Source of the DNA: a virus
Direction: 5' to 3' (one strand)
Virus record (IMG/VR): IMGVR_UViG_3300044697_000082
Coordinates: 1-22,756 of that record
Length of the DNA: 22,756 nucleotides
Positions 7,479-21,968 of this stretch are shown one piece after another (position 1 is the first letter of the stretch; each line of letters begins with the position of its first letter). Both the position numbers and the translations under genes were made by a program. A model generated the notes under the pieces. It ran no database searches, was not told where the DNA came from, and saw nothing but the letters and a program-made list of their open reading frames with translations.

Positions 7479-8326
7479 GTTATCTAAGCGTAATTTATTC
7501 GTGCAGTCATCGTGGATACGGCGGCGATTTCATTGGCCGGACTCAGGCGTGTATCGACAACCTGTTTACGTTGTCGGCCAAAATCGGGCTTGACGCGGAT
7601 ATCACGTTCGTCGAATGGAACCCGCCCGCCAACGTTCCGCGAGTTTCGCAGGTTCTAAATTGGCAGCATAAAACGTTGCCCGTGAAGTTTATCGAGGTTC
7701 CAGAAGCGGTTCACAATCTGGTCCCTAACCCCAGAAAAGAAGTCTTCTGGGAAATGTGGGCGAAGAACGTAGGTATCAGACGGGCGGCGGGCGAGTACAT
7801 CCTGTCCGCGAATCCCGACAACATCTACAGCGAGGCTTTGCTCCTTCGGCTGAAGAATCTTGAACCTGACGTTTTCTACCGGACGGACAGCTACGACGTT
7901 CACGACGGGAAAGTATTTCAGATTCATCGAGCGACGGAATCGCTTGTTAACGGTTGCCCGAACGGTTGTCCAGGATTTGTAAAGCCCGATAAGAGCGGTA
8001 AATTTCTATACCCTCCGCCAATCGGATACGTCGAGCCGTTGCACTTCAACAAGTCCGGCGACTTCTTCCTGATGGCCCGAAAGAACTGGTTCGAGATGCA
8101 CGGGCATCCGGAAACCGACTACACAGTTTCTTCCGACGCCGAGACAGTTTACTTGGCGGCGGCTCGCGGGTGGCGACAGATTTACCTGCCCGAACCAACA
8201 TACCATTTGAGCCACTCTCATAACACTCGATATGTTCCCGCTTGGACAGATGCGGCTCCGCACGGAAAAGAGAACGGCCCGAACTGGGGCTTTCCTTCGT
8301 ACGACTTTAAGACTTACGAAATCTGA
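7475..8326 (+). CDS. Glycosyltransferase-like protein, GT-A fold likely (283 aa)
   Basis: The N-terminal half has the pattern of a nucleotide-sugar transferase: beta strands and a helix in YLSVIYSCSHRGYGGDFIGRTQ, a conserved-looking WAKNVGIRRAAGEYILSANPDNIYS (about 94-118) resembling the segment before the acceptor loop of GT2-type enzymes, and a late acidic segment (SSDAETVYLAAARGWRQIYLPEPTYHLSHSHN). DNIYS may take the place of a DxD motif. The C-terminus contains several His and aromatic residues. ATG 7475 overlaps the GT11 stop (ATGA); the frame is open a little further upstream. The specific sugar cannot be read from the sequence. It probably acts in the same glycan pathway as its neighbours. 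Confidence 0.65.
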   Translation: MSYLSVIYSCSHRGYGGDFIGRTQACIDNLFTLSAKIGLDADITFVEWNPPANVPRVSQVLNWQHKTLPVKFIEVPEAVHNLVPNPRKEVFWEMWAKNVGIRRAAGEYILSANPDNIYSEALLLRLKNLEPDVFYRTDSYDVHDGKVFQIHRATESLVNGCPNGCPGFVKPDKSGKFLYPPPIGYVEPLHFNKSGDFFLMARKNWFEMHGHPETDYTVSSDAETVYLAAARGWRQIYLPEPTYHLSHSHNTRYVPAWTDAAPHGKENGPNWGFPSYDFKTYEI

Positions 8327-9039
8327 TGCACCGAGACGAATTTGACAAGGGCTTTGAAGAGTTCCAACGACTAAATAGCGGGAGACTGCCGTTTGGAGAA
8401 ATAGTTCCAGTCCTAGATGAATCAGAAATCGATGTCACGTACAATCAGATATACCTTTTGCATTGCGGTTGGGCCGCCCGAATACTAGCGAAAACCCGAC
8501 CTCGGATTCACGTTGACATCGGATCGTGTTCGTATTTCGTGGCAATAGCCTCGGCTTTCCTGAATATCGCGGCTTTCGATCTTCGCCCGATGAACATACC
8601 GCTCCCGAAGTTAATTTCTGGTGTTGCGGATTTAACGGCGCTCGCAATGCCCGACAACTCTTTGGATTCTCTCTCGTGCATGCACGCGATGGAGCACGTC
8701 GGCCTCGGTCGATACTACGATAAGATTGATCCAGACGGCGACCTGAAAGCAGCCAGAGAATTACAAAGAGTTTTGGCTCCGAACGGGAACCTTCTCATTG
8801 TACTGCCTGTCGGCATGCCGAGGGTCGTGTTCAATGCTCACAGGATTTATTCTTACGGGCATGTTATGGGTATGTTCTCGGACTTGCGTTTGAAGCAATT
8901 TACCTTCATCCCGATGGACCGCCCGCAGAGAATAGTTTATGATGCCGACCCCAAGATCGCGGAGAACGTAGACGAAGGCGCGGGGTGCTTCTGGTTTACA
9001 AAAGATGCTCGTACAGATAGCAGGAACTCCACAACCTAG
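8326..9039 (+). CDS. DUF268-type SAM-dependent methyltransferase-like protein
   Basis: The 237-residue protein resembles the DUF268 family (class I methyltransferase fold, often in sugar clusters). VDIGSCSYFVAIASAF at about 64-79 is the degenerate SAM-binding motif I. The family signature is SLSCMHAMEHVGLGRYYDKIDPDGD (about 115-139), followed by ELQRVLAPNGNLLIVLPVGMPRVVFNAHRIYS. DUF268 proteins are thought to methylate sugars, but the reaction is not well established. It starts with ATG one base into the previous stop and overlaps the next gene by 35 bases. Its last residues (RTDSRNSTT) are encoded within the next gene's start region. Confidence 0.8.
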   Translation: MHRDEFDKGFEEFQRLNSGRLPFGEIVPVLDESEIDVTYNQIYLLHCGWAARILAKTRPRIHVDIGSCSYFVAIASAFLNIAAFDLRPMNIPLPKLISGVADLTALAMPDNSLDSLSCMHAMEHVGLGRYYDKIDPDGDLKAARELQRVLAPNGNLLIVLPVGMPRVVFNAHRIYSYGHVMGMFSDLRLKQFTFIPMDRPQRIVYDADPKIAENVDEGAGCFWFTKDARTDSRNSTT

Positions 9040-10453
9040 CAGGGGAAAGATTTGCCTCGTAACCCCGCCTTCCGGATTTCTTCTTGACCAGCGGGTTTTT
9101 GTTTCGCTCGGGATTCTGAAGATCGGCGCGGTTCTTGAACAAGCGGGTTGGGAAGTCGATCATCTGGATTTAACGGGTGTCGCGAATTATGAAGAAGCTG
9201 CTGCGGACTATCGAGGAGCCGAGACTTTTGCAATCACCGCCACTACTCCGCAAATTCCTGCTGCCGTACGCATTAAAAAGGTTCTCCGTGGAAAAACGAT
9301 TCTTGGAGGACCGCACCCGACTCTTGTACACGCCGCAGTAAAACGTGGGAACCAACGGGCGCTCGCTGCCTTGGATTTCCTGATGCAGAACTTCGATACC
9401 GTTGTCGCGGGCGACGGTGAGAAGTCGATCTTTCGGGCAATCAGAGAATACGGGCTGATTGACGCCGACGATCCGAAATCGGACCTTTGGGTCTCGTCAA
9501 AAGAGTTTTCTGAGTCACCGTTGCCCGCCAGACATTTGGTGGACATGCCGAGCTACCATTACACGGTAGACGGTGAGAAGGCAACATCGGCGGTATTTCA
9601 GTTAGGCTGCCCGTTCGAATGCGGGTTCTGTGGCGGGCGATTTTCCCCGATGCTCCGACGAATCAGAAGTCGGACGGCAGATAGTGTGGTTGCCGAGATG
9701 CTCGCGATCCACGATAAGTACGGCTTTCGCGGGCTGATGGCCTACGACGACGAGCTTAATGTCAACAAAGGTCTTGTCGATCTTTGCCGGAAAATAAAAT
9801 CCACGGGCATCGATTGGCGACTGCGCGGATTTGTCAAAGCTGAATTGTTCAATGACGAGCAAGCCGAAGCGATGTACGACGCGGGCTTCCGTTGGCTGCT
9901 TTGCGGATTCGAATCCGCCCATCCGCGAATCCTGAAGAACATCAATAAGAAAGCGTCGCTCGAAGATAACACGAACATGCTTCGAACGGCCCACAAGCAC
10001 GGGCTAAAAGTAAAAGCCCTGATGAGTTTCGGGCATCCGGGCGAGAGCGAAGAAACGATCCTCGCAACCCGAGATTGGCTGCTCGCTGAAAAGCCCGACG
10101 ACTTTGATTGCACGGTAATCACGACGTATCCCGGAACACCGTATTGGGATAACGCGGTATTGGTAAAAGAACCTGTTTACCGATACGAGTTTAACGGCGA
10201 CGCTTTGTACATGGAAAACACCGACCCGAATGCCGAGGTCGGGTATTACAAAGGGAAACCGGGCGAGTACAAAGCTTTTGTCTGGACCGACTTCCTGACT
10301 GCGGAGCAACTAGTTAATCTGCGCGACGCGGTTGAGAAAGAAGTTCGCGGGAAGTTGAATATCCCGTATCCGACTGCGGGCGATGCGATCCTCTTCGAAC
10401 ACTCGATGGGTCAGCGGTTGCCCGAATCAATTTTGAAAACAGCACGACTATGA
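9005..10453 (+). CDS. Radical SAM enzyme with N-terminal B12-binding-type domain
   Basis: The 482-residue protein has the order B12-binding-like domain (about 14-145, with SLGILKIGAVLEQAGW, the PQIPAAVRIKKVL helix, LGGPHPTL at 100-107 and VVAGDGEKSI) then a radical SAM domain with the [4Fe-4S] motif C202-x3-C206-x2-C209, followed by typical barrel segments (GFRGLMAYDDELNVN, GFRWLLCGFES, KALMSFGHPGESEETI). The classical DxHxxG cobalamin ligand motif is not visible. Family members methylate unactivated carbons or catalyse other radical reactions on sugars, peptides or lipids. In this operon a C-methylation or rearrangement of a sugar is the natural guess. The ATG at 9005 lies within the previous gene. 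Radical SAM enzymes need reductant and iron-sulfur supply from the host. Confidence 0.85.
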   Translation: MLVQIAGTPQPSRGKICLVTPPSGFLLDQRVFVSLGILKIGAVLEQAGWEVDHLDLTGVANYEEAAADYRGAETFAITATTPQIPAAVRIKKVLRGKTILGGPHPTLVHAAVKRGNQRALAALDFLMQNFDTVVAGDGEKSIFRAIREYGLIDADDPKSDLWVSSKEFSESPLPARHLVDMPSYHYTVDGEKATSAVFQLGCPFECGFCGGRFSPMLRRIRSRTADSVVAEMLAIHDKYGFRGLMAYDDELNVNKGLVDLCRKIKSTGIDWRLRGFVKAELFNDEQAEAMYDAGFRWLLCGFESAHPRILKNINKKASLEDNTNMLRTAHKHGLKVKALMSFGHPGESEETILATRDWLLAEKPDDFDCTVITTYPGTPYWDNAVLVKEPVYRYEFNGDALYMENTDPNAEVGYYKGKPGEYKAFVWTDFLTAEQLVNLRDAVEKEVRGKLNIPYPTAGDAILFEHSMGQRLPESILKTARL

Positions 10454-11274
10454 CTCTACAGACAATCGACAGTGTTCGGGCGTTCTGGGATAAATCGCCT
10501 TGCTTCGTTCGCCGCTCGGCGGCTCCCAAAGATTCCCAGCAGTTCATGGACGAGACCGAAGCCCGAAAGTTCAAGTCCGAACCGCATATTCCCGGTTTTG
10601 CCGAATACGGAAAATGGGCAGGCAAGAAGGTTCTTGAGATCGGATGCGGAATCGGAATTGATTCCGTTAACTTCGCTCGGGCCGATGCTTGGGTATGCTC
10701 GCTGGACCTATCCGCAGCATCCCTTCAACTCGCCCGCAAAAGAGCGGAATTAGCAAAAGTTTATAAGCCCGTGTTTATTCACGGCGACGCGGAGAAGCTT
10801 GACGAGACTTCCGTTTGGGGCTGCGATTTTGATTTAGTCTATGCCTTTGGTTCGATTCACCATAGCCCGAACCCCGAAAAGATTTTACATAACATCCGGT
10901 TCGTTACGCATCCCGGCAGTATCTTGAAGCTGATGGTGTATAACAAGTGGAGTTGGAAATCGCTCTGGATACTCCTGAAGTACGGACGGGGCAAGTTCTG
11001 GAGGTTCCGCGAGTTGGTCGCCCGTTATTCGGAGGCTCAAACAGGGTGTCCTATCACTCACGTCTACTCCAAGAGTGAATTGCGGGCAATGCTGGAGCGG
11101 AACGGGTTTCATGTACGGAAAATGTACAAGGCGCATATATTTCCTTGGCGCATTCCTGACTACATAGAACATCGGTACGTCAAGGCTTTTCCGTGGAACA
11201 TCTGTCCAGATTGGTTGTTCAAAAAGTTAGAGTCTTGGATCGGCTGGCATTTGCTGTGCGAGGCGACGGTTTGA
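10450..11274 (+). CDS. Class I SAM-dependent methyltransferase
   Basis: The 274-residue protein shows motif I KVLEIGCGIGIDS (60-72), motif II-like SLDLSAASLQLARKRA, an acidic GDAEKL loop and motif IV region FDLVYAFGSIHHSPNPEKIL, the normal order of the Methyltransf_11/25 type. The C-terminal third (GHLLCEATV region) is basic and aromatic, perhaps the acceptor site. O- or N-methylation of a sugar is likely by context; the substrate is not visible. Start ATG 10450 overlaps the radical SAM stop (ATGA). Motif copies lie at 10605 and 11113. With the DUF268 enzyme and the radical SAM protein, this operon contains three possible methylating activities. Confidence 0.85.
   Translation: MTLQTIDSVRAFWDKSPCFVRRSAAPKDSQQFMDETEARKFKSEPHIPGFAEYGKWAGKKVLEIGCGIGIDSVNFARADAWVCSLDLSAASLQLARKRAELAKVYKPVFIHGDAEKLDETSVWGCDFDLVYAFGSIHHSPNPEKILHNIRFVTHPGSILKLMVYNKWSWKSLWILLKYGRGKFWRFRELVARYSEAQTGCPITHVYSKSELRAMLERNGFHVRKMYKAHIFPWRIPDYIEHRYVKAFPWNICPDWLFKKLESWIGWHLLCEATV
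10605..10619 (+). promoter_or_regulatory. Dispersed motif copy inside methyltransferase gene
   Basis: ATACGGAAAATGGGC, one weak last position. Co-directional. Confidence 0.5.
11113..11127 (+). promoter_or_regulatory. Dispersed motif copy inside methyltransferase gene
   Basis: GTACGGAAAATGTAC; the thirteenth base differs from consensus. Encodes VRKM. Co-directional. Confidence 0.5.
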
Positions 11275-12233
11275 AAACGATCACTGTGGCGGGGGCAGGC
11301 GGCTTCATCGGGCATCATCTCTGTAAGAGATTGAAAGCCGAGGGAAATTACGTCATTGGCGTAGACCTGAAATATCCGGAATACGAAGAGTCGCCCGCAG
11401 ACCAGTTTCATATTTGGGATTTGCGAGAGTATAACTCGGCTCTGGCATCTACTTACCACGTAGACGAAGTTTATCAGCTTGCGGCAGACATGGGTGGGAT
11501 CGGGTACATCACGTCCAACCTAGCGAGCATTGCCCGCAACAACATCCTGATCAACGCGAACATGCTCGAAGCCGCAAAACAGTGGAAAGTCAAGAAGTAT
11601 CTGTATTCTTCGAGCGCCTGTGTTTATCCAGCAGGCAAGCAGGGTGACGCGAACGTAACTCCGCTGAAAGAAGAAGATGCTTACCCCGCCGACCCCGAAC
11701 CTGGGTACGGCTGGGAAAAACTTTTTGCCGAGCAGCTCGTTGAGTATTACAATCACGATTTCGGGCTAGATACGCGGATCGTCCGTTTCCATAATGTTTA
11801 CGGGTCTTTGGGAACTTACGACGGCGGAAAAGAAAAAGCGCCCGCCGCGATTTGCCGGAAGATTGCGGAAGCGCAAGACGGCGATACGATTGAAATCTGG
11901 GGCGACGGCGAGCAGACACGAAGCTTCATGCACGTCGATGACTGCTGCGAAGGTCTTGTACGGTTAATGGATTCGGGCTACCAACGCCCGCTAAACCTCG
12001 GGACCGAAGAACTTGTTACCGTGAATCAGTTGGTTGACAAGGTTGCCCACATCGCAGGCAAAGAAATTCACAAGCGACACAATCTGAAAAAGCCGCAGGG
12101 CGTTCGCGGGCGGAATTCCGATAACACGCGGCTTCGAGAAGTTCTAGGTTGGGAGCCGAAGATCACGTTAGACGAGGGACTTCGCCCGACATACGATTGG
12201 ATCGAAAAACAGGTGTACGCCTGCAATGACTAG
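11271..12233 (+). CDS. GDP-mannose 3,5-epimerase-like SDR enzyme
   Basis: The 320-residue enzyme of the extended SDR family has GAGGFIG (8-14) for NAD binding, SSSACVYP (113-120) and the catalytic Y146-x3-K150 (YGWEK). Many stretches read like GDP-mannose 3,5-epimerase (GME): DMGGIGYITSN, NNILINANMLEAA, HNVYGSLGTYDGGKEKAPAAICRK, DGEQTRSFMHVDDCCEG and the RGRNSDNTRLREVLGW end. GME converts GDP-D-mannose to GDP-L-galactose or GDP-L-gulose, a step better known from plant vitamin C synthesis. The frame is open upstream to 11193, but a TTG at 11271 in TTGA overlap with the previous stop places the start directly before the Rossmann fold, so I prefer it. Its product would be a donor for the GT11 enzyme in the same operon. 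Confidence 0.88.
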   Translation: MKTITVAGAGGFIGHHLCKRLKAEGNYVIGVDLKYPEYEESPADQFHIWDLREYNSALASTYHVDEVYQLAADMGGIGYITSNLASIARNNILINANMLEAAKQWKVKKYLYSSSACVYPAGKQGDANVTPLKEEDAYPADPEPGYGWEKLFAEQLVEYYNHDFGLDTRIVRFHNVYGSLGTYDGGKEKAPAAICRKIAEAQDGDTIEIWGDGEQTRSFMHVDDCCEGLVRLMDSGYQRPLNLGTEELVTVNQLVDKVAHIAGKEIHKRHNLKKPQGVRGRNSDNTRLREVLGWEPKITLDEGLRPTYDWIEKQVYACND

Positions 12234-13422
12234 GATCGGAATCATAGGGGCCGGAAAATTAGGAAGCCCGATGGCCGCCGCACTTGCGAGCAAGGGCTTC
12301 GAGGTCATTGTCTGCGACGTTGACCCGAAAAAAGTTCAGGCAATAAATGACGGGCAAGCCCCCGTACAAGAAACTGGCTTACAGGGTTTGATATTCGCGA
12401 ATCGCGAACGTTTGCGGGCAACCAGCAGAATCGAAGAAGCAGTCCGTTTTGCGGACATAACTTTCGTAGTCACGGCGACACCGAGTTCTCCTGACGGACG
12501 GTTCTCGCTCGAATATATTTTGCCCGCATGCGAAGAAATCGGACGGGTTCTCGGGCGACCGCTCGGTAAAGTCGCGTTCCATCCCGTGGTAATAACGAGC
12601 ACCGTTATGCCCGGGGATACTTGGGGCCAGATTCGAGAGACGCTCGAAAAACACAGTCATCGAAAATGCGGCGAAGAGTTTGGTTTAGCTTACAACCCAG
12701 AGTTTATCGCGCTCGGAAGCGTAATCCACGACTTCCTGAATCCCGATTTTGTTTTGCTTGGCGCGAGCGATCCGTTAACCGAAGCGCGGATTTCAGCGGT
12801 GTACAAGAAGATTTCGGACGCCCCAATCGCCTGCCTGCCAATCGTGGATGCAGAAATCGCAAAGCTCGCGATCAATTCGTATATCACGACAAAGATTTCG
12901 TTCGCGAATATGCTTTCCCGAATTTGCTCGGGCGTTCCGAATAGCAACGTGGACAACGTGACCCGCGCAATGGGCATGGACTCCCGCATCGGTGGAAAGT
13001 ACCTGAAGGGCGGCGTGAGTTATGGCGGACCCTGTTTTCCCCGAGATAATCGGGCGCTCGCAACCCTCGGGCAAAGCTTCCCGCTTGTAGTTGATAGTTT
13101 CAATCGGGCGCAGATTACTTATCTAGCTAGCTTCGTAAGAGAGAACACCCGAGGCCCTATAGCGATTCTCGGGACGAACTACAAAGTTGGAACCGATGTA
13201 GTTACCGAATCGGCTGGTAGTCTGTTGCACGCAGAACTTGCGGAAGAACTTTGTACGGAAAACGAATCGCCCGAAACGATTGTTGTCATGTTGCCCGATC
13301 CGAAATTTCAAGACATTGATTTCTCGGGTAGGACTGTGATTGATCCGTGGAGGGCGTTCGGATATTTGGCCGAGGATTCCTCTGTTACTTATATCCCGTT
13401 GGGTATTGGACCTCGTGAGTAA
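12226..13422 (+). CDS. Nucleotide-sugar 6-dehydrogenase (UDP-glucose/GDP-mannose type)
   Basis: The 398-residue protein has the N-terminal Rossmann motif GIIGAGKLG (5-13), the middle-domain AEIAKLAINSY (209-219, with the catalytic Lys and Asn) and the active-site Cys270 in GGPCFPRD (267-274). It oxidises the C6 of a UDP- or GDP-hexose to a uronic acid with two NAD. The C-terminal domain (AILGTNYKVGTDVVTESAG) is present but the protein is shorter than the usual 430-450 residues. Whether UDP-glucose or GDP-mannose is the substrate cannot be told; the adjacent GDP-mannose epimerase makes the GDP route attractive. It overlaps the preceding gene by 8 bases and the next by 8. A motif copy is at 13253. 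Confidence 0.85.
   Translation: MTRIGIIGAGKLGSPMAAALASKGFEVIVCDVDPKKVQAINDGQAPVQETGLQGLIFANRERLRATSRIEEAVRFADITFVVTATPSSPDGRFSLEYILPACEEIGRVLGRPLGKVAFHPVVITSTVMPGDTWGQIRETLEKHSHRKCGEEFGLAYNPEFIALGSVIHDFLNPDFVLLGASDPLTEARISAVYKKISDAPIACLPIVDAEIAKLAINSYITTKISFANMLSRICSGVPNSNVDNVTRAMGMDSRIGGKYLKGGVSYGGPCFPRDNRALATLGQSFPLVVDSFNRAQITYLASFVRENTRGPIAILGTNYKVGTDVVTESAGSLLHAELAEELCTENESPETIVVMLPDPKFQDIDFSGRTVIDPWRAFGYLAEDSSVTYIPLGIGPRE
13253..13267 (+). promoter_or_regulatory. Dispersed motif copy inside dehydrogenase gene
   Basis: GTACGGAAAACGAAT, full consensus match, encodes CTENE. Co-directional. Confidence 0.6.
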
Positions 13423-14113
13423 GGCGCTAATCGCGGTTATCACTTGCCGAAAACTAGCGTATCCGATTAACGAATTAGATTCGCATCTGGCGGGCGAGAA
13501 CGACCGAATCCAAACGCTCCTTTCGACGTGGTACAGAACGTATCTCGCTCGCTATACGGACAAGATTGATGTAGGATTTTTTGTCGGGCGCGGGGAAGGC
13601 GAAGTAAATCTCCCGCACTACATTGAACTTGATGCGCCAGACGACTACGAAGGCTTGCCCGCGAAGATTCGCAAGATGTTTGAGTTTGCTTTGGATGCCG
13701 GATACAAGCATGTCTGCAAGGCCGATGATGACGGATACATCAACTGGCCCAAGTTTGAAGTTGTAACCGCTGATTATGCGGGCATTCGAAAGCCCGGAGA
13801 TTATGCGGGCGGCGGCGCTTACTGGCTGTCTCATCGCCCGATGGAAATCGTGGTCGAACACGGGATTCCAGATTGGGCGGAAGATCGCGGTGTAGGGAAG
13901 TTGCTCGCAGAACACGGAATCCAGTTAACGGATATTCCGTATATCCAGCCGGGCAGGGGAATCGCAGCCGAATACGGTTGCTCGTGTTCGCCCGCATGTC
14001 GGGCAAAAAGTTCGAAGCCCGTGTGGGAATATTTTCCAGACGCGCCAGTGATTACGCAACTATCGCCCGAACAAATCCGAGCTTGTCACAGATTTTACGA
14101 AGGACTACGTTAG
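13415..14113 (+). CDS. DDD-motif glycosyltransferase, paralog 1 (232 aa)
   Basis: The product resembles the galactosyltransferase type with a DDD metal-binding motif (KADDDGY, 102-108), as in family GT31. It is clearly a paralog of the gene at 14859: both share the ALDAGY...DDD segment, IDVxxFVGxGxxEV and ELDAPDxYxxLPAK. The C-terminal part has Cys-rich CSCSPAC in place of CCSCPEC of the other copy, perhaps a metal or disulfide site. GTG 13415 is taken as the start because it gives MSKALIAVITCRK at the first beta strand and overlaps the dehydrogenase gene by 8 bases; the frame is open upstream to 13340. Family assignment is by motif only. Confidence 0.7.
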   Translation: MSKALIAVITCRKLAYPINELDSHLAGENDRIQTLLSTWYRTYLARYTDKIDVGFFVGRGEGEVNLPHYIELDAPDDYEGLPAKIRKMFEFALDAGYKHVCKADDDGYINWPKFEVVTADYAGIRKPGDYAGGGAYWLSHRPMEIVVEHGIPDWAEDRGVGKLLAEHGIQLTDIPYIQPGRGIAAEYGCSCSPACRAKSSKPVWEYFPDAPVITQLSPEQIRACHRFYEGLR

Positions 14114-14131
14114 AGATCGGCTAGATAATCT

Positions 14132-14815
14132 TCAGGCGGTTCGGCTAAATAGGATACGCCATGCTGTTGCAGCCACGATTGGAACTTGCCCGTTTCCAAT
14201 GGCTTTGAATCTGTCCAGCCTATCGGCCAGCCCATCATCCATTCCTGATTCACAGGGTCCGGTTTCCCAAATACTTGAACGAAGGTTCGGCAATTCGGAT
14301 GCTTTTGCATGGATGCGGCAGAGAAATTCATAGCGCACGTTGGAGTATGCAAGTAACCAGTATCTTTTCCGAATGTGGTCAGCACCCAAGTCTTTCGCGG
14401 ATAAAGCAAGCGTCTCTGTTTTGTATCCAGAAGATTGGCAGTCAGCGGCGGCCCTTGCAATTGCTTTGGCGGAGACGTTTTCTGCGAGCACGAATTTTGG
14501 TTGAACTTGTCGGATAATTCGGAACATTTCAGGCCAATAATCGCGTGCTGTGCTTTTTCCATGCGTCGCTGTACTAAAGGGCTGGCAGGGGAAGCCTCCT
14601 GAAACCACGTCAACACGGTTATACCAGAGGCGTCCGTTGAAGGTACAAACATCGTCCCAAACGGGAAACGGAGGAAGGATGCCGTCATTCTGCCGTTGCA
14701 TGAGGATTCGGGCGCAGTAGGGATTGATTTCCACGGCGCAAACGGTTCTCCATCCGAGCAGTTTGCCCGCGAGAATTCCTCCACCAGCGCCTGCGAAAAG
14801 TGCCAACTCATTCAT
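14132..14815 (-). CDS. Compact C5-cytosine DNA methyltransferase
   Basis: The 227-residue enzyme has the ordered motifs of C5 methyltransferases: motif I LALFAGAGGG (4-12), motif IV GFPCQPFS with nucleophile Cys77, motif VI ENV (112-114), motif VIII HIRKRYWLLAY (148-157) and motifs IX-X DRFKAIGNGQVP (201-212). It methylates cytosine in a specific DNA sequence, probably protecting phage DNA from restriction. It is about a third shorter than typical M.HhaI-type proteins; the target-recognition part between VIII and IX is only about 40 residues. It is encoded against all neighbours and lies between two paralogous glycosyltransferase genes. The GCCCG word is rare in it (3 copies in 700 bases), consistent with recent acquisition. 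No partner endonuclease is next to it. Confidence 0.9.
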   Translation of the reverse strand: MNELALFAGAGGGILAGKLLGWRTVCAVEINPYCARILMQRQNDGILPPFPVWDDVCTFNGRLWYNRVDVVSGGFPCQPFSTATHGKSTARDYWPEMFRIIRQVQPKFVLAENVSAKAIARAAADCQSSGYKTETLALSAKDLGADHIRKRYWLLAYSNVRYEFLCRIHAKASELPNLRSSIWETGPCESGMDDGLADRLDRFKAIGNGQVPIVAATAWRILFSRTA

Positions 14816-14820
14816 AAGAA

Positions 14821-14849
14821 ATCATACGGGAAACGGATTCTGTTGTCAA
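14821..14849 (-). promoter_or_regulatory. Leftward consensus promoter for the methyltransferase, leaderless
   Basis: On the minus strand TTGACA (14849-14844), a 17-base spacer and TATGAT (14826-14821) are followed by five bases and the methyltransferase ATG (14815), so the transcript has no untranslated leader. The motif copy at 14824 covers the spacer and the -10 box. Confidence 0.8.
14824..14838 (+). promoter_or_regulatory. Dispersed motif copy overlapping methyltransferase promoter
   Basis: ATACGGGAAACGGAT differs from the consensus by G for A at position 7. Relative to the leftward gene it is reversed and covers the -10 box, as an operator would. Confidence 0.6.
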
Positions 14850-14858
14850 GCACCTTTT

Positions 14859-15518
14859 ATGCCCAAGATTCTAGTCGGAATCACAACCGCCCGTAAATTC
14901 AAATATGCTGCGGGCGACCAAGCGGGTCATCGGGATAGCCCGACTAACCCCAGGATTCATGCGGTTCTCGGTACGTGGTTTCCCGAGTGTACGGGCAAGA
15001 TTGATGTCCGTCTTTTCGTAGGCACGGGCGACCAAGAAGTTCATTTTCCGAACTTGGTTGAACTTGATGCTCCGGACGGGTATTACGACTTGCCCGCAAA
15101 AGTCAAAGCGATGTTTGCTTGGGCGCTGGACGCAGGCTACGATTACGCGGTCAAGCTCGATGATGATGTCCTGTTTCGCCCGAATAACTTCCTGAAATTC
15201 TTCCAGCCCGTAGACTACTGCGGGTACGAACTGGAAAGCAACACCGACAAGTGGGCATCGGGCGCAGCATACGTAGTCAGTCGTCGGGCGATGCAGTTCG
15301 TGGTCGATACGCCGTGGAACCCGGCGTGGAATAGTGCGGAAGACCAGATGGTGGGCAGGATTCTGCGGGCTAACGGTATCCCTTTGGTGCACGACCCGAG
15401 ATACCTTTGTTGCTCGTGTCCGGAATGCTTCCGCAAGTATGGCCTAGAGAACCTCATAACCATACACACTTCGAAGCCCGAAATGATGTACGATTTGCGC
15501 GCCAAGCTAGGACAATGA
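14859..15518 (+). CDS. DDD-motif glycosyltransferase, paralog 2 (219 aa)
   Basis: Paralog of the gene at 13415, with which it shares TxKIDV, FVGxGxxEV, ELDAPDxY, LPAK and the ALDAGYxxxxKxDDD metal-binding block (DDD at 101-103). The C-terminal Cys cluster CCSCPECFRK corresponds to CSCSPAC in the first copy. By motif it is a GT31-like transferase that uses a divalent metal. ATG 14859 begins MPKILVGITTARK, the first strand; the upstream extension to 14724 lies antisense to the methyltransferase gene and is rejected. The leftward methyltransferase separates the two copies, suggesting it was inserted after a tandem duplication. Confidence 0.7.
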   Translation: MPKILVGITTARKFKYAAGDQAGHRDSPTNPRIHAVLGTWFPECTGKIDVRLFVGTGDQEVHFPNLVELDAPDGYYDLPAKVKAMFAWALDAGYDYAVKLDDDVLFRPNNFLKFFQPVDYCGYELESNTDKWASGAAYVVSRRAMQFVVDTPWNPAWNSAEDQMVGRILRANGIPLVHDPRYLCCSCPECFRKYGLENLITIHTSKPEMMYDLRAKLGQ

Positions 15519-15549
15519 CTCTACAGTTTCTTAATTAAGGGGTCTTTCA

Positions 15550-16509
15550 ATGCCAACTTTCGATACAGAATTAGCTAGCGCGGCAAATTTCAATATCCTC
15601 GGCGCGTCTACGGTTACCAATACCGGGCTTACCGTGGTCAGCGGCGGGAACCTGGGTCTTTATCCCGGAACTTCGGTTACCGGGTTTCCTCCGGGCACTT
15701 TTGTTGCGCCCGCAGTCGAGCACGTCACGGACGCCGTAGCGCAGCAGGCGCAGGCCGACGCGACGACCGCGTACAACTATTTTGCCGGGCTACCGAGTAC
15801 GGGATCGTTGCCAGCGCAACTCGCGGGTCTGACTTTTACGCCCGGAGTTTACGCTCAGGCTAGCGCGGTCAACCTCGCTTCCGGGCAGTCTGTTACGTTA
15901 GACGCCCAAGGCAACTCCGCCGCGACATTTGTTTTCCAGATTGGGTCGGCACTGACTCTCGTCTCCGGTTCTTCCGTGATTCTGAAGAACGGGGCGCAGC
16001 CGCGAAACATCGTGTGGCAAGTTGGAAGCTCGGCAACCATTGGAACCACCGCCATTATGTTCGGCGATGTCATCGCCTTGGCGTCGGTAACCTTGGCGCA
16101 CCTTGCTAGCTTGAACGGGCGGGCAATTGGTCTTACGGGCGCGGTGTCTATGGACACCAACCTGATGACGGCACCCGCGCCGCTCGCTGGAGCGCCCGTG
16201 GTTGTTGTTACTCTTTCGGGTGGCGTCAGCACGTCGGGTATTCCCGCGAATTTCATCAACACGCCGAGAACCCCGAATCCCGCTTCGGCGTCTAGCACCG
16301 CGACTCCGAACTTCCCGCTTACGATCACAACTTGGTCTTTACCGGGTTTCCCGTCCCAGCCTCAAGTCGCGTCGGCGCAGAGTTACTCGACATTGCCCGG
16401 ACAAATCTTTCCCGATTTTGTCAGCGGACAAGTTGTTGAAGCTCCTGGAACGCTTCCTTCGGGCCAGCAAATTCTGGCTCTGCAAGCCGGGGCTCCCGCC
16501 ATCGACTAG
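15550..16509 (+). CDS. Ice-binding-like (DUF3494) beta-solenoid protein
   Basis: The 319-residue protein matches the ice-binding-protein domain (DUF3494): NFNILGASTVTNTG (14-27), SGGNLGLYPGTSVTGFPPG, the helical AVAQQAQADATTAYNYFAG segment, GLTFTPGVYAQASAVNL and repeating beta-solenoid turns (FVFQIGSALTLVSGSSVIL, IVWQVGSSATIGT, GDVIALASVTL, LNGRAIGLTGAVSMDTNLM). In bacteria this domain is secreted and binds ice or acts as an adhesin. Here no signal peptide is present and the gene lies in the phage late region, so it is probably a virion-associated or decoration and receptor-binding protein that uses the same fold. A Pro/Ser/Thr-rich tail of about 110 residues follows the domain. Ribosome binding site AAGGGG lies before the ATG. 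Ice binding itself is untested. Confidence 0.85.
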   Translation: MPTFDTELASAANFNILGASTVTNTGLTVVSGGNLGLYPGTSVTGFPPGTFVAPAVEHVTDAVAQQAQADATTAYNYFAGLPSTGSLPAQLAGLTFTPGVYAQASAVNLASGQSVTLDAQGNSAATFVFQIGSALTLVSGSSVILKNGAQPRNIVWQVGSSATIGTTAIMFGDVIALASVTLAHLASLNGRAIGLTGAVSMDTNLMTAPAPLAGAPVVVVTLSGGVSTSGIPANFINTPRTPNPASASSTATPNFPLTITTWSLPGFPSQPQVASAQSYSTLPGQIFPDFVSGQVVEAPGTLPSGQQILALQAGAPAID

Positions 16510-16511
16510 CG

Positions 16512-16922
16512 ATGTCAGAATTTTCCCTCTACTGCGACGGCAGCGTCAAGCACGGTACGGGATACTTCGGCTACGTTCTCTTTCTCGACAAAGTTGAAGT
16601 AGATCGTGGTTGGGGGATGATTGGGCAAGGAATTAAGCCCAAGGTTGCCGAGAAGTACGCAATCATCTACGGGCTAGATTCCTTTGTACGGAAAATGGAC
16701 CGAGCTTGCCCGCTAAAAGTTTTCGGTGATGCGAAACAAGTCATCGAATCGGCTGATAAAGATTCTGATATACATCTTCGAGCGGAAACGATCCGAGGAT
16801 GGGGCGTGCCCGTGGAATTCCAATGGACAGCCCGAGGAAACAATAAATTGGCGAACGATCTAGCCAGAAAAATGATCGAATATTTTCGGATCGCTGGTAA
16901 AGGCCCGAAAATCGAAAGGTAA
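16512..16922 (+). CDS. RNase HI-like protein
   Basis: The 136-residue protein fits a minimal RNase H fold, with the four acidic metal ligands in order: D9 in YCDGS, E47 in AEKYA, D73 in VFGDAKQ and D116 in LANDLARK. Such enzymes cut the RNA strand of RNA-DNA hybrids. The basic protrusion of E. coli RNase HI is absent, as in many short bacterial and phage versions. It starts two bases after the ice-binding-like gene and ends two bases before the next gene. Isolated RNase H genes between virion genes are uncommon. A role in removing primers or R-loops during replication is the obvious inference. The motif copy at 16686 lies in its coding strand. Confidence 0.85.
   Translation: MSEFSLYCDGSVKHGTGYFGYVLFLDKVEVDRGWGMIGQGIKPKVAEKYAIIYGLDSFVRKMDRACPLKVFGDAKQVIESADKDSDIHLRAETIRGWGVPVEFQWTARGNNKLANDLARKMIEYFRIAGKGPKIER
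16686..16700 (+). promoter_or_regulatory. Dispersed motif copy inside RNase H gene
   Basis: GTACGGAAAATGGAC, full consensus, encodes VRKMD. Co-directional. Confidence 0.6.
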
Positions 16923-16924
16923 TT

Positions 16925-17542
16925 ATGAGCTTTATTCAAAATCAGGCCCCGGTACTGTACAGTCTACAGACTTCGGTCTCCGGAACCGGAACTAATCTGT
17001 TCCAGGTTAGCTCGGTTGGAACCACTGCGGGCCTTGCAGCGGGAAATTTCAACCTCATTGCTGGCCCCTCCAACAACCTGAACGGTCGCCGATTTAGCGT
17101 TCTCTACGGCGGATGGGTCAAGGCCCACGGCGCGACTCAGGAAATTGCTTTCGGGCTTCAGATTTTTCCGTGGAATACTTCGGTCGCGGGCGGCCCGACT
17201 GTCAGCGGCACGAACACTTTCACTGCCGTAAACTCCGGAGTCTTGACTGCGGGCACGTATTATGATTTCATCGTCATGCAGGATTTCTTCGGCGAAGCAA
17301 ACGCAAACACTCTGACTTGTTTTGCTCCCTCGGTTTATGTGGGCGGCACGCAGGTCACGATTGCCAGCACCGCTGCGGCGGTTACCGTAGCCTTCAATAC
17401 AGCCTCGGTGACAGAGCCGATCACGGGCGAAAATAACACCACGGATTATCCGCTGGCGTATTTCGTTCCGACGTATGCGAACACCGTGAGCGATACGACT
17501 GAGACGTTGCAGTTGACCCAGTGCGCGGTGCAGTTGATCTAA
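16925..17542 (+). CDS. Probable virion protein, beta-rich (205 aa)
   Basis: The 205-residue product is rich in Thr, Ser, Gly, Val and Ala, with almost no charged residues, and reads as beta strands throughout (SVSGTGTNLFQVSSVG, RRFSVLYGGWVKAHG, AAAVTVAFNTASVTE). It lacks a signal peptide. This composition is typical of capsid decoration or minor tail proteins. No family is recognised. It lies between the RNase H gene and a small basic gene and ends 8 bases before a strong hairpin, so it may be the last gene read from upstream. The shared composition with the ice-binding-like protein supports a structural role for this part of the window. Confidence 0.65.
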   Translation: MSFIQNQAPVLYSLQTSVSGTGTNLFQVSSVGTTAGLAAGNFNLIAGPSNNLNGRRFSVLYGGWVKAHGATQEIAFGLQIFPWNTSVAGGPTVSGTNTFTAVNSGVLTAGTYYDFIVMQDFFGEANANTLTCFAPSVYVGGTQVTIASTAAAVTVAFNTASVTEPITGENNTTDYPLAYFVPTYANTVSDTTETLQLTQCAVQLI

Positions 17543-17549
17543 TTGGATA

Positions 17550-17575
17550 GCGGGCGGCTTCGGTCGCCCGCATTC
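17550..17575 (+). terminator. UUCG-tetraloop hairpin, probable terminator
   Basis: The stem GCGGGCGGC/GTCGCCCGC (17550-17558 with 17563-17571, one G-T pair) closes a TTCG loop, an exceptionally stable RNA hairpin. The following ATTCTTC is a weak U tract, so termination may be partial or it may be a processing or stability element. It lies 8 bases after the stop of the probable virion gene, and both arms contain the GCCCG/CGGGC word. Confidence 0.65.
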
Positions 17576-17592
17576 TTCAAAGGAGATTTGAA

Positions 17593-17805
17593 ATGCGTAA
17601 GAAAGGCGATTACGGCAAGGGAATGGCCCGAAAGGGTAAGACCGAAATTCAGTCTTATTCGAAAAAGGGAAATTTCGGCTCGGCTGGAACTAAAAGGGCG
17701 GGTAACCCCGCTTACATGGACGGTCGCGGGCAGCAACAGAGCGGAATGAATCCCGATTACGCGGGCGGAACTGATTCCGGCGCGATGGGCAACATTCCCG
17801 AGTAA
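17593..17805 (+). CDS. Small basic Gly/Lys-rich protein (70 aa)
   Basis: The 70-residue product begins MRKKGDYGKGMARKGKTEIQ and is Gly-, Lys- and Gln-rich with few hydrophobic residues: probably flexible, and basic in its first half. This fits a nucleic-acid- or capsid-binding peptide, but no family is recognised. A strong ribosome binding site (AAAGGAG, 17579-17585) precedes the ATG. The stop is immediately followed by a motif copy (17806-17820). It may form the first gene of a unit that restarts after the hairpin at 17550. Confidence 0.7.
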   Translation: MRKKGDYGKGMARKGKTEIQSYSKKGNFGSAGTKRAGNPAYMDGRGQQQSGMNPDYAGGTDSGAMGNIPE

Positions 17806-17820
17806 GTACGGAAAACGGAC
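17806..17820 (+). promoter_or_regulatory. Dispersed motif copy in the gap before 17825
   Basis: GTACGGAAAACGGAC, perfect consensus, starting directly after a stop codon and ending four bases before the next ATG. Co-directional. Confidence 0.6.
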
Positions 17821-17824
17821 GACA

Positions 17825-18145
17825 ATGAATCTGATGTTGGAACAGCAGGAAATGTCCGAGCGGCAGACACTTGCCCGAAAGAAAGTTCGAAAGGCGGCGG
17901 GTTCGAAAAGAAAACGGACCCGCACGTCTGTCAAAACTTTGCTGATCGATCTCGCTCGGCATACCAAGGCTTCGGGCAAAGTCAGGGCGTGGGCGATCCA
18001 GCAACTCTTGTTATTGACCGGGAAGCCCGTACAGCCCTTCGAGGAATCTTATGACGAACCAGAATCAAAGCCCGAATCCGTTCCCGCCTTCACCGGAAGA
18101 GACCTTGGAAAGTCTGAAGTTCGGTTACCCGTGGATTCGATCTGA
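17825..18145 (+). CDS. Hypothetical basic helical protein (106 aa)
   Basis: The 106-residue product starts with a helical, strongly basic segment (ERQTLARKKVRKAAGSKRKRTRTS) followed by a helix (KTLLIDLARH) and AWAIQQLLLLTGK, then an acidic Pro-rich tail. Basic N-terminus plus helices recall DNA-binding small terminase-like proteins, and the terminase large subunit is 2 kb downstream in the same direction, but the similarity is too weak to claim it. No Shine-Dalgarno sequence is visible apart from the GGAAAA of the motif directly upstream. Confidence 0.6.
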   Translation: MNLMLEQQEMSERQTLARKKVRKAAGSKRKRTRTSVKTLLIDLARHTKASGKVRAWAIQQLLLLTGKPVQPFEESYDEPESKPESVPAFTGRDLGKSEVRLPVDSI

Positions 18146-18197
18146 AGAAGGTCTTGATCCAAACGACACGCATATCAACGGACGTTGCGTAGAGTAA
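18051..18197 (+). CDS. Small overlapping hypothetical protein (48 aa)
   Basis: The product begins MTNQNQSPNPFPPSPEETLE and contains KFGYPWIRSEEGLDPNDTHINGRCVE. It is polar, Pro-rich at its start and has one Cys. It overlaps the preceding gene by 95 bases in another frame, which weakens the call. A GAGGAA purine run lies six bases before the ATG. The protein-like second half (after the overlap) makes the call reasonable but not certain. Function unknown. Confidence 0.4.
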   Translation: MTNQNQSPNPFPPSPEETLESLKFGYPWIRSEEGLDPNDTHINGRCVE

Positions 18198-18237
18198 ATT
18201 TGCTCGAAAGCTTCGGCGGCGAGCAGGAGAAGTTAAT

Positions 18238-18582
18238 GTGCAGTCGAACCGGACGCTCAAAAAACTCTACCGCGAATACAACCGCAAATATTTTGCGGGC
18301 AAGCTCCCAAGCCTCCCGATCAATTTTCTGACGCCCGGCCAGATGAAGAAGTATTTTGGTGTAGCGCGGGCGACTTGTGCGATTACTTGCTTCAAGAAGG
18401 GCACGTACACGCCCGATTCAATCTACATATCCATGAATCAATTCAAGCCTTGGCGGTATGTCCGAGCGGATTTGCTCCACGAACTCTGTCACGTTTCAAA
18501 ACCACGGGCGAGCCACGGGAAAGTTTTTCAGGACGAGATGCTCAGAATAGCAAAACTCGGCGCTTTCGAAGATGCTTGGTAG
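18238..18582 (+). CDS. SprT-like zinc metalloprotease domain protein
   Basis: The 114-residue product has the zinc motif of the SprT family: H81-E82-x2-H85 (HELCH) with a further His at 93 in ASHGKVF, preceded by the typical YREYNRKYFAGKLPSLPINF start. SprT and Spartan enzymes are minimal proteases that in eukaryotes remove DNA-protein crosslinks. In phages they are seen occasionally and the role is not settled. The GTG start is preferred because AGGAGA lies seven bases upstream and the ATG two bases before is in another frame. The next gene starts 15 bases after its stop, across a motif copy. Confidence 0.85.
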   Translation: MQSNRTLKKLYREYNRKYFAGKLPSLPINFLTPGQMKKYFGVARATCAITCFKKGTYTPDSIYISMNQFKPWRYVRADLLHELCHVSKPRASHGKVFQDEMLRIAKLGAFEDAW

Positions 18583-18596
18583 TACGGAAAACGAAC
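18582..18596 (+). promoter_or_regulatory. Dispersed motif copy before phosphatase gene
   Basis: GTACGGAAAACGAAC ends one base before the ATG of the phosphatase gene, which has no other Shine-Dalgarno sequence; GGAAAA would stand about nine bases upstream. Co-directional. Confidence 0.6.
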
Positions 18597-18597
18597 A

Positions 18598-19089
18598 ATG
18601 AAGGAAGTCTATTCGCGATTGTACGTAGGGGGTGATCCAGATTACCTCAAGGTTGCGGATGATCCTGATTGGCGAATTGTACGGGCGTGCAAGGACGGGC
18701 CGGGAAGCCATCGAGAGACTCTAGGCTATCAAGAACGTTCCGCCCCAAAGGGTCCAACCTATTACTTTGTTGAACGCCCGCGAAAACTGATCCTGAACCT
18801 GATCGACACCGATGACCCTAATTATATCCCTACTCCGCTTGTTGATAAAGCTCTGTCGTATATCTCGGATTCTCTTAGGCTAGGGCACAAAGTTCTTGTT
18901 GCCTGTAATCACGGGCAATCTCGAAGCCCGTCGCTCGCCTTCCTGTGGTTATACCTCGAAGGCAAGTTGCCCGCAGAATATCATCGGGCCGCCCGAATGT
19001 TCAAGACTCTTTATCCGGATTACGAACCGAACACGGGCATTAGGCAGTACGTCAAATCCAGAATTCTTGCTGCAAAGCACAAAAGGTAA
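18598..19089 (+). CDS. Dual-specificity phosphatase-like protein
   Basis: The 163-residue protein has the Cys-phosphatase P-loop C103-x5-R109 (ACNHGQSRS) with the following SPSLAFLWLY helix, and an Asp-rich loop NLIDTDDPN (67-75) that could provide the general acid. The usual His before the Cys is Ala here, and the x5 loop is NHGQS instead of the common xxGxS. The enzyme would remove phosphate from Tyr/Ser/Thr, RNA or a sugar-phosphate. The N-terminus VYSRLYVGG resembles other phage-encoded members of this family. It overlaps neither neighbour, but only two bases separate it from the next gene. Confidence 0.8.
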   Translation: MKEVYSRLYVGGDPDYLKVADDPDWRIVRACKDGPGSHRETLGYQERSAPKGPTYYFVERPRKLILNLIDTDDPNYIPTPLVDKALSYISDSLRLGHKVLVACNHGQSRSPSLAFLWLYLEGKLPAEYHRAARMFKTLYPDYEPNTGIRQYVKSRILAAKHKR

Positions 19090-19091
19090 AT

Positions 19092-19736
19092 ATGGCAGAG
19101 AACCCAATCAAATCATTGATTCCGAAAGACCCGAACGGCACTAGTATCGGCTCGGAGCTGAATGCCCGAGTAAAAATGCAGCAGCAGGCGGAACAGGCGT
19201 TGAAGCCGACTGGCGCTCCCGCTGCGGGGACAGTCGCGAGGCCCGTAGGAACCAGCCCCGTGGACAAGACCAAGACTCAAGGCCCGTATGGTACGGGCGT
19301 GGGCGAGAAGCGGATCGACGTTGACAAGATGACAAAGCCTTTGGGACAGATGCACTCCGGAGGCACGGTCCCAAAGACGGGTCCTTATGTTCTCAAGGCA
19401 GGCGAGAAGGTTCTGACGCAGGACCAACACAGCCACTTGAAGAATGCGATGGCACTTGCCCACGATGCCCTCGGGCATAATCCGGACGCAGCCCCCGAAT
19501 TGCCGAAGCATCTGAAAGAAATGCACATCAAGGAATTGCACACGGGCGGGTTTCACGTCCAAAAGCACGACGGTAAAGGCGGGATGACCGAGCACGGCGC
19601 TCCGCACGACGATGCGGTGATCGGGCACTTTATGGATCACATGGCGCATCCCGACGAAGATGAAGAGGCGGCGGAAGCAGGCGACCACGATATGCACGCG
19701 GCTGACGCCGAGTCGCAAGCTTTGGGAGGGAAGTAA
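19092..19736 (+). CDS. Hypothetical His-rich protein (214 aa)
   Basis: The 214-residue product has a low-complexity Pro/Thr/Gln first half, a middle with SGGTVPKTGPYVLKAGEKVL (about 90-109) that is a common short signature in phage structural or tail-tape proteins, then a helix (HLKNAMALAHDAL) and a very His- and Asp/Glu-rich tail (MDHMAHPDEDEE, DHDMHAADAES). The His clusters could bind metal. No enzyme motif, signal peptide or membrane helix. A virion-associated or scaffold role is the best guess because terminase follows; the protein itself is not recognised. Confidence 0.65.
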   Translation: MAENPIKSLIPKDPNGTSIGSELNARVKMQQQAEQALKPTGAPAAGTVARPVGTSPVDKTKTQGPYGTGVGEKRIDVDKMTKPLGQMHSGGTVPKTGPYVLKAGEKVLTQDQHSHLKNAMALAHDALGHNPDAAPELPKHLKEMHIKELHTGGFHVQKHDGKGGMTEHGAPHDDAVIGHFMDHMAHPDEDEEAAEAGDHDMHAADAESQALGGK

Positions 19737-19933
19737 TGGCGCATAAAGTTCATAATCCCTCGCTTTACCGTGCTTTGCACAAACTTAACAAGGGCGGCCT
19801 GCACCGGGCGTTAGGCGTGCCCGAAGGTCAGAAGATTCCTGCTGAGAAAATCGAGAAAGCCCGAAACTCCAGTAACAAACATATTTCCCGTATGGCTAAC
19901 ATGGCCCATACGATGGCAGGCTGGAAACACTAA
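19736..19933 (+). CDS. Small basic hypothetical protein (65 aa)
   Basis: The 65-residue product is basic and His- and Met-containing (KVHNPSLYRALHKLNKGGLH; KHISRMANMAHTMAGWKH), mostly helical in character, with no Cys. It starts one base into the stop codon of the preceding gene (TAATG) and so belongs to the same unit. Family not recognised. Strong positive charge and location just before the terminase gene would fit a DNA- or capsid-associated protein. Confidence 0.65.
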   Translation: MAHKVHNPSLYRALHKLNKGGLHRALGVPEGQKIPAEKIEKARNSSNKHISRMANMAHTMAGWKH

Positions 19934-19960
19934 CGTTCGAACAAATTCAAGGAGAAGTCA

Positions 19961-20128
19961 ATGATTGAAAAAGCAATTATCGCGGGCATCGGTTTTGTAA
20001 TCGGGGCATTTTGCCCGTCAGTTCTCAAGAAGATCAAGAGTTGGTTTTCGAGCGAGGGCAAGAAGGTCGTTTCGATTGCTGACGCGGAGGCCAAGGCTGC
20101 CGAAGCGGACATCAAGAAAAAGCTGTAA
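19961..20128 (+). CDS. Small membrane protein (55 aa)
   Basis: The product begins MIEKAIIAGIGFVIGAFCPS: a membrane helix at about 4-19, followed by a Lys-rich polar tail with helix-forming repeats (KKIKSWFSSEGKKVV, ADAEAKAAEADIKKKL). A perfect ribosome binding site (AAGGAGA) lies six to seven bases upstream. Similar short proteins with one N-terminal helix and an Ala/Lys coiled tail precede terminase genes in many phages; their role is not known. Holin-like function is possible but unsupported. Confidence 0.65.
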   Translation: MIEKAIIAGIGFVIGAFCPSVLKKIKSWFSSEGKKVVSIADAEAKAAEADIKKKL

Positions 20129-20144
20129 CTTGCGGGCGACCGCT

Positions 20145-20159
20145 GTACGGAAAACGAAC
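20145..20159 (+). promoter_or_regulatory. Dispersed motif copy before terminase gene
   Basis: GTACGGAAAACGAAC ends three bases before the TTG candidate start of the terminase gene (20163). Co-directional. Confidence 0.6.
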
Positions 20160-20162
20160 TGA

Positions 20163-21968
20163 TTGGACGCCCGAATGCAGCAGCTAACGGACAAACATAA
20201 GGACGCTCTAGCCGCGCATTGGGGAAAGTTCAGGGCACAAATCCTTGAAGAGTACGGTTTTGATCTGATCAAGGACGGGCTTGCGCTTCGGCACCGGGCG
20301 CAAACTGACGGGTTTTGGCTGGCGAAAGAAGTCCTCGGGTATACGCAGTTCTCAGACTGTCATCAGGAATTGTTTTCGACGCCCGAAAAAGAAGGCTTCT
20401 TTACCCTCAAAGACCCGAGCTACCCGACATTCAAGGAGTTCGCCGAGGCCGACAAAGGTCTTCACGACCGTTTGGTTTTCCTCTGTCGTGGCGGATTCAA
20501 GTCCACCGCCGACATCGTAGACACGATCCAGTATTTTCTGGCGTGGCCTTCGATTCGGGTGAACGTGATGACGGGCACCGCGTCATTGTCCGAGGAATTT
20601 ACGGGCGTCATCAAAGGGCACTTTACCTTAAACGAGGACGGTAGCCCGAAGACGCACGACAACGGAAAACTCCGGCTAGTCCAAATCCTTTTTCCGGAAC
20701 ACTGCGAGATTGATCCCGGCAAGAAGCCGCAGTGGGTAACGCCCGCAAGACAAGGCGATATCGCGGGACCGACGATCCGAGCCACGTCGCTCGATAAGAA
20801 CACGACTGGTACGCATTGCGACGTTCTGAAAGTTGACGACGGCACTACCGCTGAGAATACGCAGAACGCGGAACGTATTCAGAGTGTGAACCGGGCACTG
20901 TCAATGGCTCGTAAACTCTGCGAACCGTACGGCTATAAAGACAGGATCGGCACGCCGTACGCGACGACCGACAACCTGACGGCTACGGTTAAAGACGAGG
21001 AAATGCGGGCAAAGAATGGGCTCCCGCCGCTCGTCAAGATTCTGATTCATCCGGCGTACGAAGTCTTGCCCGAATTTGCGGACCTGACGCCCGATCAATT
21101 TCAGCCGCACATGGTAAAGCTGTGGTTCCCCGAAAGAATCACGGTTGATTACCTGAAGACCGAGTATCACGAAGCCCAGAAAACGGGCGATACTACGAGC
21201 TTCTATTCGCAGTACGCGCTAGACCTGAACAAGTCCTTCGAGACCAAGTTCAGACGCGAGTTGATGGTCGCCCGAACAGTTGATACTCTCCCGCAGCAAG
21301 GTCTGACTTTCGAAGCCTGGGACTTGGCGTACAGCGAGCAAAAAGGCGCTAAGTACACCGTAGGAATCGCGGGCTTGTTTACCGCGCAGGGGATTTACAT
21401 TATCGACATGGTTCGCGGGCGATTCGGGGAATACGAACTTCCGGGAGTCATGGCGAGCTTCGCGCACAAATGGAAACCGCGCCGCGTGGCCGTGGAAGAT
21501 TCTATGGGTGCCCGCTGGTTAAGTGCGGAAATCCGTCGCGAAATGGAACGCTTCAGAATCCATATTCCGTTTGAGTTCGTATCGCTCGGAAAAGGATCGA
21601 AGGCCAACAGCAAGGAAGTCAAGGCGAAACCCGCATGCCGCTTGCTTGGTGACGGGCGTTTGTACTTCTGGAAAGCAATGGCGGGCCTCGAAGAACTCTA
21701 CAACGAGCTTGAGGCGTTTCCGAAGGGGACGTTCACGGATATTGTTTGCAGCCTGAGCTTGCTCGTAAATCACTTCCAGAGTTTCGCGGAGACGCAGCCA
21801 ATGTTGCCCGTAAATGTTACGGACCGTATGGAACGATTGAGGCGCGACATCGTGTATGGCCTGGGCCCTTTCGCAAAACAAGTTGAAGACGGGCAAGCGT
21901 TGATGATGCAAGGCGGAGTACCGCAGGAACCGGACCGGGACCCTATTGCCGAGGCCGGATTGTATTAA
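20163..21968 (+). CDS. terL: Terminase large subunit (TerL)
   Basis: This 601-residue protein (597 from the ATG at 20175) is the phage DNA-packaging motor. The ATPase part has a deviant Walker A RGGFKST (109-115) and a Walker B-like segment DVLKVDDG (220-227). The C-terminal RNase H-like nuclease domain has its acidic residues in AWDLAY (D387), AVEDSMGARW (E445/D446) and GTFTDIVCSLSLL (D526). It docks on the portal, cuts concatemers and pumps DNA into the capsid. Length is within the normal 450-650 range. Neither possible start has a Shine-Dalgarno sequence; TTG 20163 lies three bases after the motif at 20145 and ATG 20175 twelve bases further on. No portal gene is visible in the window. Confidence 0.93.
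   Translation: MDARMQQLTDKHKDALAAHWGKFRAQILEEYGFDLIKDGLALRHRAQTDGFWLAKEVLGYTQFSDCHQELFSTPEKEGFFTLKDPSYPTFKEFAEADKGLHDRLVFLCRGGFKSTADIVDTIQYFLAWPSIRVNVMTGTASLSEEFTGVIKGHFTLNEDGSPKTHDNGKLRLVQILFPEHCEIDPGKKPQWVTPARQGDIAGPTIRATSLDKNTTGTHCDVLKVDDGTTAENTQNAERIQSVNRALSMARKLCEPYGYKDRIGTPYATTDNLTATVKDEEMRAKNGLPPLVKILIHPAYEVLPEFADLTPDQFQPHMVKLWFPERITVDYLKTEYHEAQKTGDTTSFYSQYALDLNKSFETKFRRELMVARTVDTLPQQGLTFEAWDLAYSEQKGAKYTVGIAGLFTAQGIYIIDMVRGRFGEYELPGVMASFAHKWKPRRVAVEDSMGARWLSAEIRREMERFRIHIPFEFVSLGKGSKANSKEVKAKPACRLLGDGRLYFWKAMAGLEELYNELEAFPKGTFTDIVCSLSLLVNHFQSFAETQPMLPVNVTDRMERLRRDIVYGLGPFAKQVEDGQALMMQGGVPQEPDRDPIAEAGLY

Follow-up and report, generated by a model that had tools for sequence, protein, structure and literature searches.

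The window analysed here is a virus record of 22,756 bases (IMG/VR record IMGVR_UViG_3300044697_000082), and the virus is a soil-type phage. It carries a gene in which a DUF3494 domain, of the family named for ice binding, is fused to a small phage protein. We propose that the product, which has two modules, is probably a virion accessory-binding protein. The gene is divided as follows:

15550..16509, + strand: whole gene (319 amino acids), a fusion of DUF3494 and a small phage protein; intact open reading frame (ORF), with the same fusion in a second strain, L002
15571..16173, + strand: DUF3494 (Ice_binding) beta-solenoid domain, residues ~8-208, recognised by PF11999, 6eio, AlphaFold2 and Foldseek
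16174..16230, + strand: junction or linker, residues ~209-227, unaligned with the sister proteins (alignments A1 and A4)
16231..16506, + strand: C-terminal module (the tail), residues ~228-319, homologue of the stand-alone protein of 96-97 amino acids in sister phages

A profile search placed PF11999 (Ice_binding) on residues 16-206 with an E value of 7e-51. The match covers positions 1-207 of the 208 in the profile and scores 173 bits, above the curated cut-off of 28.7. The closest solved protein by sequence is 6eio (E 3.5e-42). AlphaFold2 predicted a three-sided beta-solenoid with a long helix at residues 62-79, and the domain model is confident, with a predicted local distance difference test score (pLDDT) of ~85-96 over most of residues 70-200; tail residues 211-319 have a pLDDT <50. 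A Foldseek search of this model against the PDB returned 31 chains at E <0.001, all of which are DUF3494 ice-binding or antifreeze proteins, and 6eio matched at E 2e-16 with a root-mean-square deviation of 1.3 A, 46% identity and a template modelling score (TM) of 0.86, normalised to the target. The initial annotation had described a full DUF3494 layout followed by a tail of about 110 residues. Profile, sequence and fold agree with this layout, and the extension counts 111 residues.

A typical DUF3494 ice-binding protein is exported by means of an N-terminal signal peptide (PMC7783341). We found no signal peptide in the window protein, in which the domain begins at about residue 8. In-frame stops lie 6 and 14 codons upstream of the ATG, and the five codons open before the start are too few for a signal peptide; a missed upstream start is ruled out as its source. 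This bears out the earlier observation that the secretion signal is missing. The phage proteins in general appear to share this property. By a crude measure of hydrophobic stretches, used in place of a signal-peptide predictor and applied to regions that differed between the two sets, a hydrophobic stretch of 12 residues precedes the domain in 68 of 80 bacterial DUF3494 proteins, and among 76 distinct phage DUF3494 proteins one has such a stretch close to its N-terminus or ahead of the domain. The closest bacterial matches, L036 and L010, were considered as hidden prophage copies and rejected, as their proteins look exported and their surroundings are of cell type. L103 and L108, found in the first survey, seem by eye to carry leaders and membrane anchors and were treated as cell-type rather than phage loci.

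The tail is found alone in related phages. Sister contigs were located through their terminase (65-79% identity; 48% for L098). In L087, L089 and L090, a stand-alone protein of 96-97 amino acids matching the window tail lies between the same glycosyltransferase and RNase-H-like genes. In L092 and L098, the tail homologue lies 3' of terminase and ahead of the portal gene, the L098 portal having been identified by eye through resemblance to the L092 portal. The tail is 46-51% identical to four homologues, with 34 invariant columns. A larger alignment, in which many rows had the domain only, put the tail rows in the wrong place and was replaced by a smaller one. A profile search found exactly one tail homologue per contig in all five sisters, and PF11999 had no match in the four searched for it, all but L098. 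A stand-alone tail in contigs free of DUF3494 suggests that the domain was grafted onto an existing phage protein, and the simplest history would be fusion of DUF3494 to the N-terminal end of a small protein the phage already had. The domain is dispensable, like accessory domains of the Ig-like type, since the sisters keep the carrier without it.

The second strain, L002, is 93% identical to the window over 3.5 kb. The fusion gene differs between the two by 34 base changes, 32 of them silent and two within one changed codon (S263A). At the sequence level, the fusion is under strong purifying selection. Compared with L002, window positions 13440-21824 form a mosaic, with 93% identity over 15068-18601 and then 79-85% with gaps; the terminase turns from divergent to nearly identical inside the gene.

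DUF3494 occurs in many other phages. We scanned IMG/VR viral contigs twice, with a mixed alignment that gave 14 loci and with an alignment of phage sequences that gave 112 confirmed DUF3494 stretches, of which 79 distinct loci were kept. These counts are lower bounds because the search patterns were narrow. The survey, which the initial annotation had called for, shows a wide distribution of the domain among uncultured phages. In searches of whole records, single contigs held up to five DUF3494 domains. The following host proteins were assigned by independent virion matches:

L120: tail sheath hosting DUF3494 (phrog_279, E 4.5e-28)
L130: tail sheath hosting DUF3494 (phrog_2839, E 1.3e-38)
L156: tail sheath hosting DUF3494 (phrog_2839, E 5.5e-30; PF17482, E 4e-11)
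L112: tail sheath hosting DUF3494 (phrog_16991, E 4.6e-5)
L109: baseplate J protein hosting DUF3494 (PF04865, E 7e-19)
L177 and L206: baseplate J proteins hosting DUF3494
L104: minor tail protein hosting DUF3494 (phrog_9922, E 6.6e-7)
L125: virion structural protein hosting DUF3494 (phrog_15100, E 1.4e-9)

Many other DUF3494 host proteins had no family match. In the sheath and baseplate-J relatives, the domain is fused to or inserted in virion proteins, as is characteristic of an accessory domain; the carrier in the window is a phage protein that may be located in the particle. L127 has the same design as the window protein, with DUF3494 ahead of a module of 110 residues whose stand-alone relative, judged by eye, is encoded by the next gene. 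L003 and L126 have an N-terminal tag in common, which is also present on a neighbouring protein with no detected DUF3494 domain. In the sheath-like proteins encoded at L120:4382-7213 and L122:1811-4651, the domain is seemingly circularly permuted: residues 163-315 of L120 match 6eio 70-223 and residues 321-361 then match 6eio 24-64, and L122 is split alike. Another recurring type (L149, L151, L170, L185, L188, L198 and L202) has a fibronectin-III-like start, DUF3494 and a proline-rich end, the fibronectin-III match in L149 reaching only E 0.006.

Deposited genomes gave a different picture. A tblastn search of 50,697 deposited phage records found no match to five DUF3494 queries (P0001, L102, L112, L107 and L104), to the L003 tag or to the 97-residue tail module. 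As a positive control, the same method found 34 records among plasmids. In the viral structure library BFVD, three Hyperionvirus DUF3494 proteins were the sole matches at E <0.001. Among viral homologues of an ice-binding-like protein, a study of Arctic viral contigs (PMC11515562) names that of Synechococcus phage S-SKS1 as the main one; PF11999 had no match across its whole record (HQ633071), even at E 1.

We built a maximum-likelihood tree of 105 domains, 24 of them from phages; the further loci of the 112-stretch scan lie outside it. One clade unites 21 of the 24 phage domains, including that of the window (support 95/88, from a bootstrap that had incompletely settled). The remaining three are placed elsewhere, and therefore the domain was captured at least two or three times. 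Bacterial relatives of the domain include Brevibacterium, Streptomyces and Solirubrobacter, genera that we take not to be cold specialists. The link to cold-living organisms drawn in the initial annotation is thus too narrow.

The gene lies in the following neighbourhood:

14799..15518, + strand: Galactosyl_T glycosyltransferase, upstream neighbour (PF01762, E 2.6e-11), its position kept in L087, L089 and L090
16512..16922, + strand: RNase-H-like (RVT_3) gene, downstream neighbour, 2 bases past the stop (PF13456, E 7e-5; synteny)
16925..17542, + strand: beta-rich protein of 205 amino acids, conserved in the sisters at 62-80% (alignment A6)
20163..21968, + strand: terminase large subunit (phrog_38, E 2.2e-37), which marks the window as a tailed phage

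The 205-residue protein has no Pfam or PHROG match, and its predicted structure (pLDDT 54, best TM ~0.3) is too poor to serve as proof of a virion gene and was rejected as such. The gene had been described as lying beside virion-like genes. This holds only in part: the immediate neighbours are the glycosyltransferase, the RNase-H-like gene and the 205-residue protein, and the nearest certain packaging gene is the terminase. A position between terminase and portal is, however, occupied by the tail homologue of two related phages. Ahead of the DUF3494 gene, positions 6636-15518 hold a long glycan-type cluster with GT11, two methyltransferases, a B12 radical SAM protein, NAD-sugar epimerase and dehydrogenase, and two related glycosyltransferases; much of it is common to L087, L089 and L099. 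Between these two glycosyltransferases, an ORF of 227 amino acids at 14132-14815 (- strand, antisense) resembles a DNA cytosine methyltransferase and matches only the first half of the dcm model. The best deposited relative of the window terminase is that of Tunturiibacter phage Tunturi_3 (36% identity), a podovirus whose host is an acidobacterium of the Arctic tundra (PMC11924767). The two phages also have in common a dual-specificity phosphatase and a small gene adjacent to the terminase, and an acidobacterial host is therefore likely.

How might the fusion protein work? The C-terminal module, which stands alone and in single copy in related phages, probably docks on the particle. The added DUF3494 domain would project outward and provide a ready-made flat binding face rich in Ser, Thr and Ala. 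Weak, multivalent binding through this face is probably directed at an extended surface, for example ice, extracellular polysaccharide or the envelope of the host. With copies on many subunits, weak binding to a repetitive surface could keep particles near their hosts. Other phages may use the domain likewise, as an insert within tail sheaths and baseplate-J proteins or in fusion with small phage proteins. The initial annotation had suggested a particle-surface protein anchored by its tail, and this is indirectly well supported by the stand-alone tail of the sisters and by the domain inside tail proteins of other phages. Several findings weigh against such a role. Since the tail module belongs to no known family and could not be modelled with confidence, its docking role is a guess. 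A profile search found no tail protein in Tunturi_3. The gene itself lies upstream of terminase, among glycan and small genes, outside the structural block.

The nature of the binding face bears on a first alternative, in which the solenoid has no specific ligand and serves the particle surface as a spacer or stabiliser. This would agree with the sisters doing without the domain and with its recurrence on very different tail proteins. The B-face positions of AnpIBP (PMC7277481) were transferred to the window protein by alignment. Of the 27 that point outward, 24 hold Ala, Gly, Ser or Thr, the residues that predominate there in proven ice binders, and AnpIBP S153 and T156, at which tyrosine substitution cut activity to 17% (PMC7277481), correspond to S160 and T163. 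These four residues make up on average 89% of B-face positions in phage domains and 86% in bacterial ones, compared with 48% and 43% elsewhere in the domain. The enrichment in phage domains suggests, without proving, that the face is under selection, and a decoration without ligand is unlikely. A preserved face was rejected as proof of ice binding, as phage and bacterial members score alike, and thus ice is not told apart from other ligands. We consider a cell or polysaccharide surface the leading candidate, though short of an even chance, ice a somewhat weaker one and the absence of a ligand the least expected.

The main rival holds that the protein is a soluble auxiliary cryoprotectant that guards the infected cell or, after lysis, the local environment. 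The closest solved proteins bind ice, the ice-binding face is preserved, and a leaderless protein could get out through lysis. Furthermore, PF11999 ice-binding-like genes in Arctic viral operational taxonomic units were interpreted as host cryoprotection in PMC11515562. However, the window protein has no signal peptide and is fused to a conserved phage module, and the same phage clade includes domains in sheath and baseplate proteins, for which the role of a soluble cryoprotectant is impossible. We regard this explanation as improbable, slightly more so than decoration without ligand. An artefact, either a bacterial gene in a chimeric assembly or a functionless chance fusion, might be suspected because bacteria commonly have members of this family and the window sequence is itself a fragment from an assembly, but the identical junction in the diverged strain L002 excludes a chimera and in practice already refutes the idea, and with strong purifying selection and a domain that falls in the phage clade, outside the bacterial branches, its probability is negligible.

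The two-module virion protein thus remains the preferred reading. A broader proposal, of which the window protein would be one case, is that many uncultured phages use DUF3494 as a general decoration of their virions, with one to five copies borne by tail sheath, baseplate and small particle proteins, and that whole particles thereby attach to ice or to comparable crystalline or polymer surfaces. We put this forward tentatively, as an idea with somewhat less than even prospects. If these views are true, a family named for ice binding has a second role as a surface-binding module of phage particles, and 'ice-binding' genes in viral metagenomes should be read as particle parts instead of host cryoprotection. 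It would also become possible to test directly whether a dedicated domain lets phage particles stick to ice or environmental polymers, and a defined domain with a mutable flat face would offer a route to the ligand. The domain itself is known, and its use on phage particles, which we did not find in the open literature searched, is provisionally new, since that search was limited to open papers.

Several known systems can be compared. The Arctic viral contigs likewise have PF11999 in viral contigs, and the portion consulted of that study (PMC11515562) gives the cryoprotection reading without discussing architecture, fusion to virion proteins or missing leaders. The Hyperionvirus proteins are viral like that of the window, but belong to a giant virus instead of a phage. 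EfcIBP (6eio) and other DUF3494 ice-binding proteins have the same domain and face residues; they typically carry a signal peptide, whereas the window protein is leaderless and has a phage-specific tail. The Ig-like domains of phage virion proteins are promiscuous and dispensable, occur as additions to tail and other particle proteins or as insertions in them, and probably bind surfaces. The usage of DUF3494 on phage proteins, fused or inserted, appears comparable by analogy, although DUF3494 is another family with another fold, the three-sided beta-solenoid.
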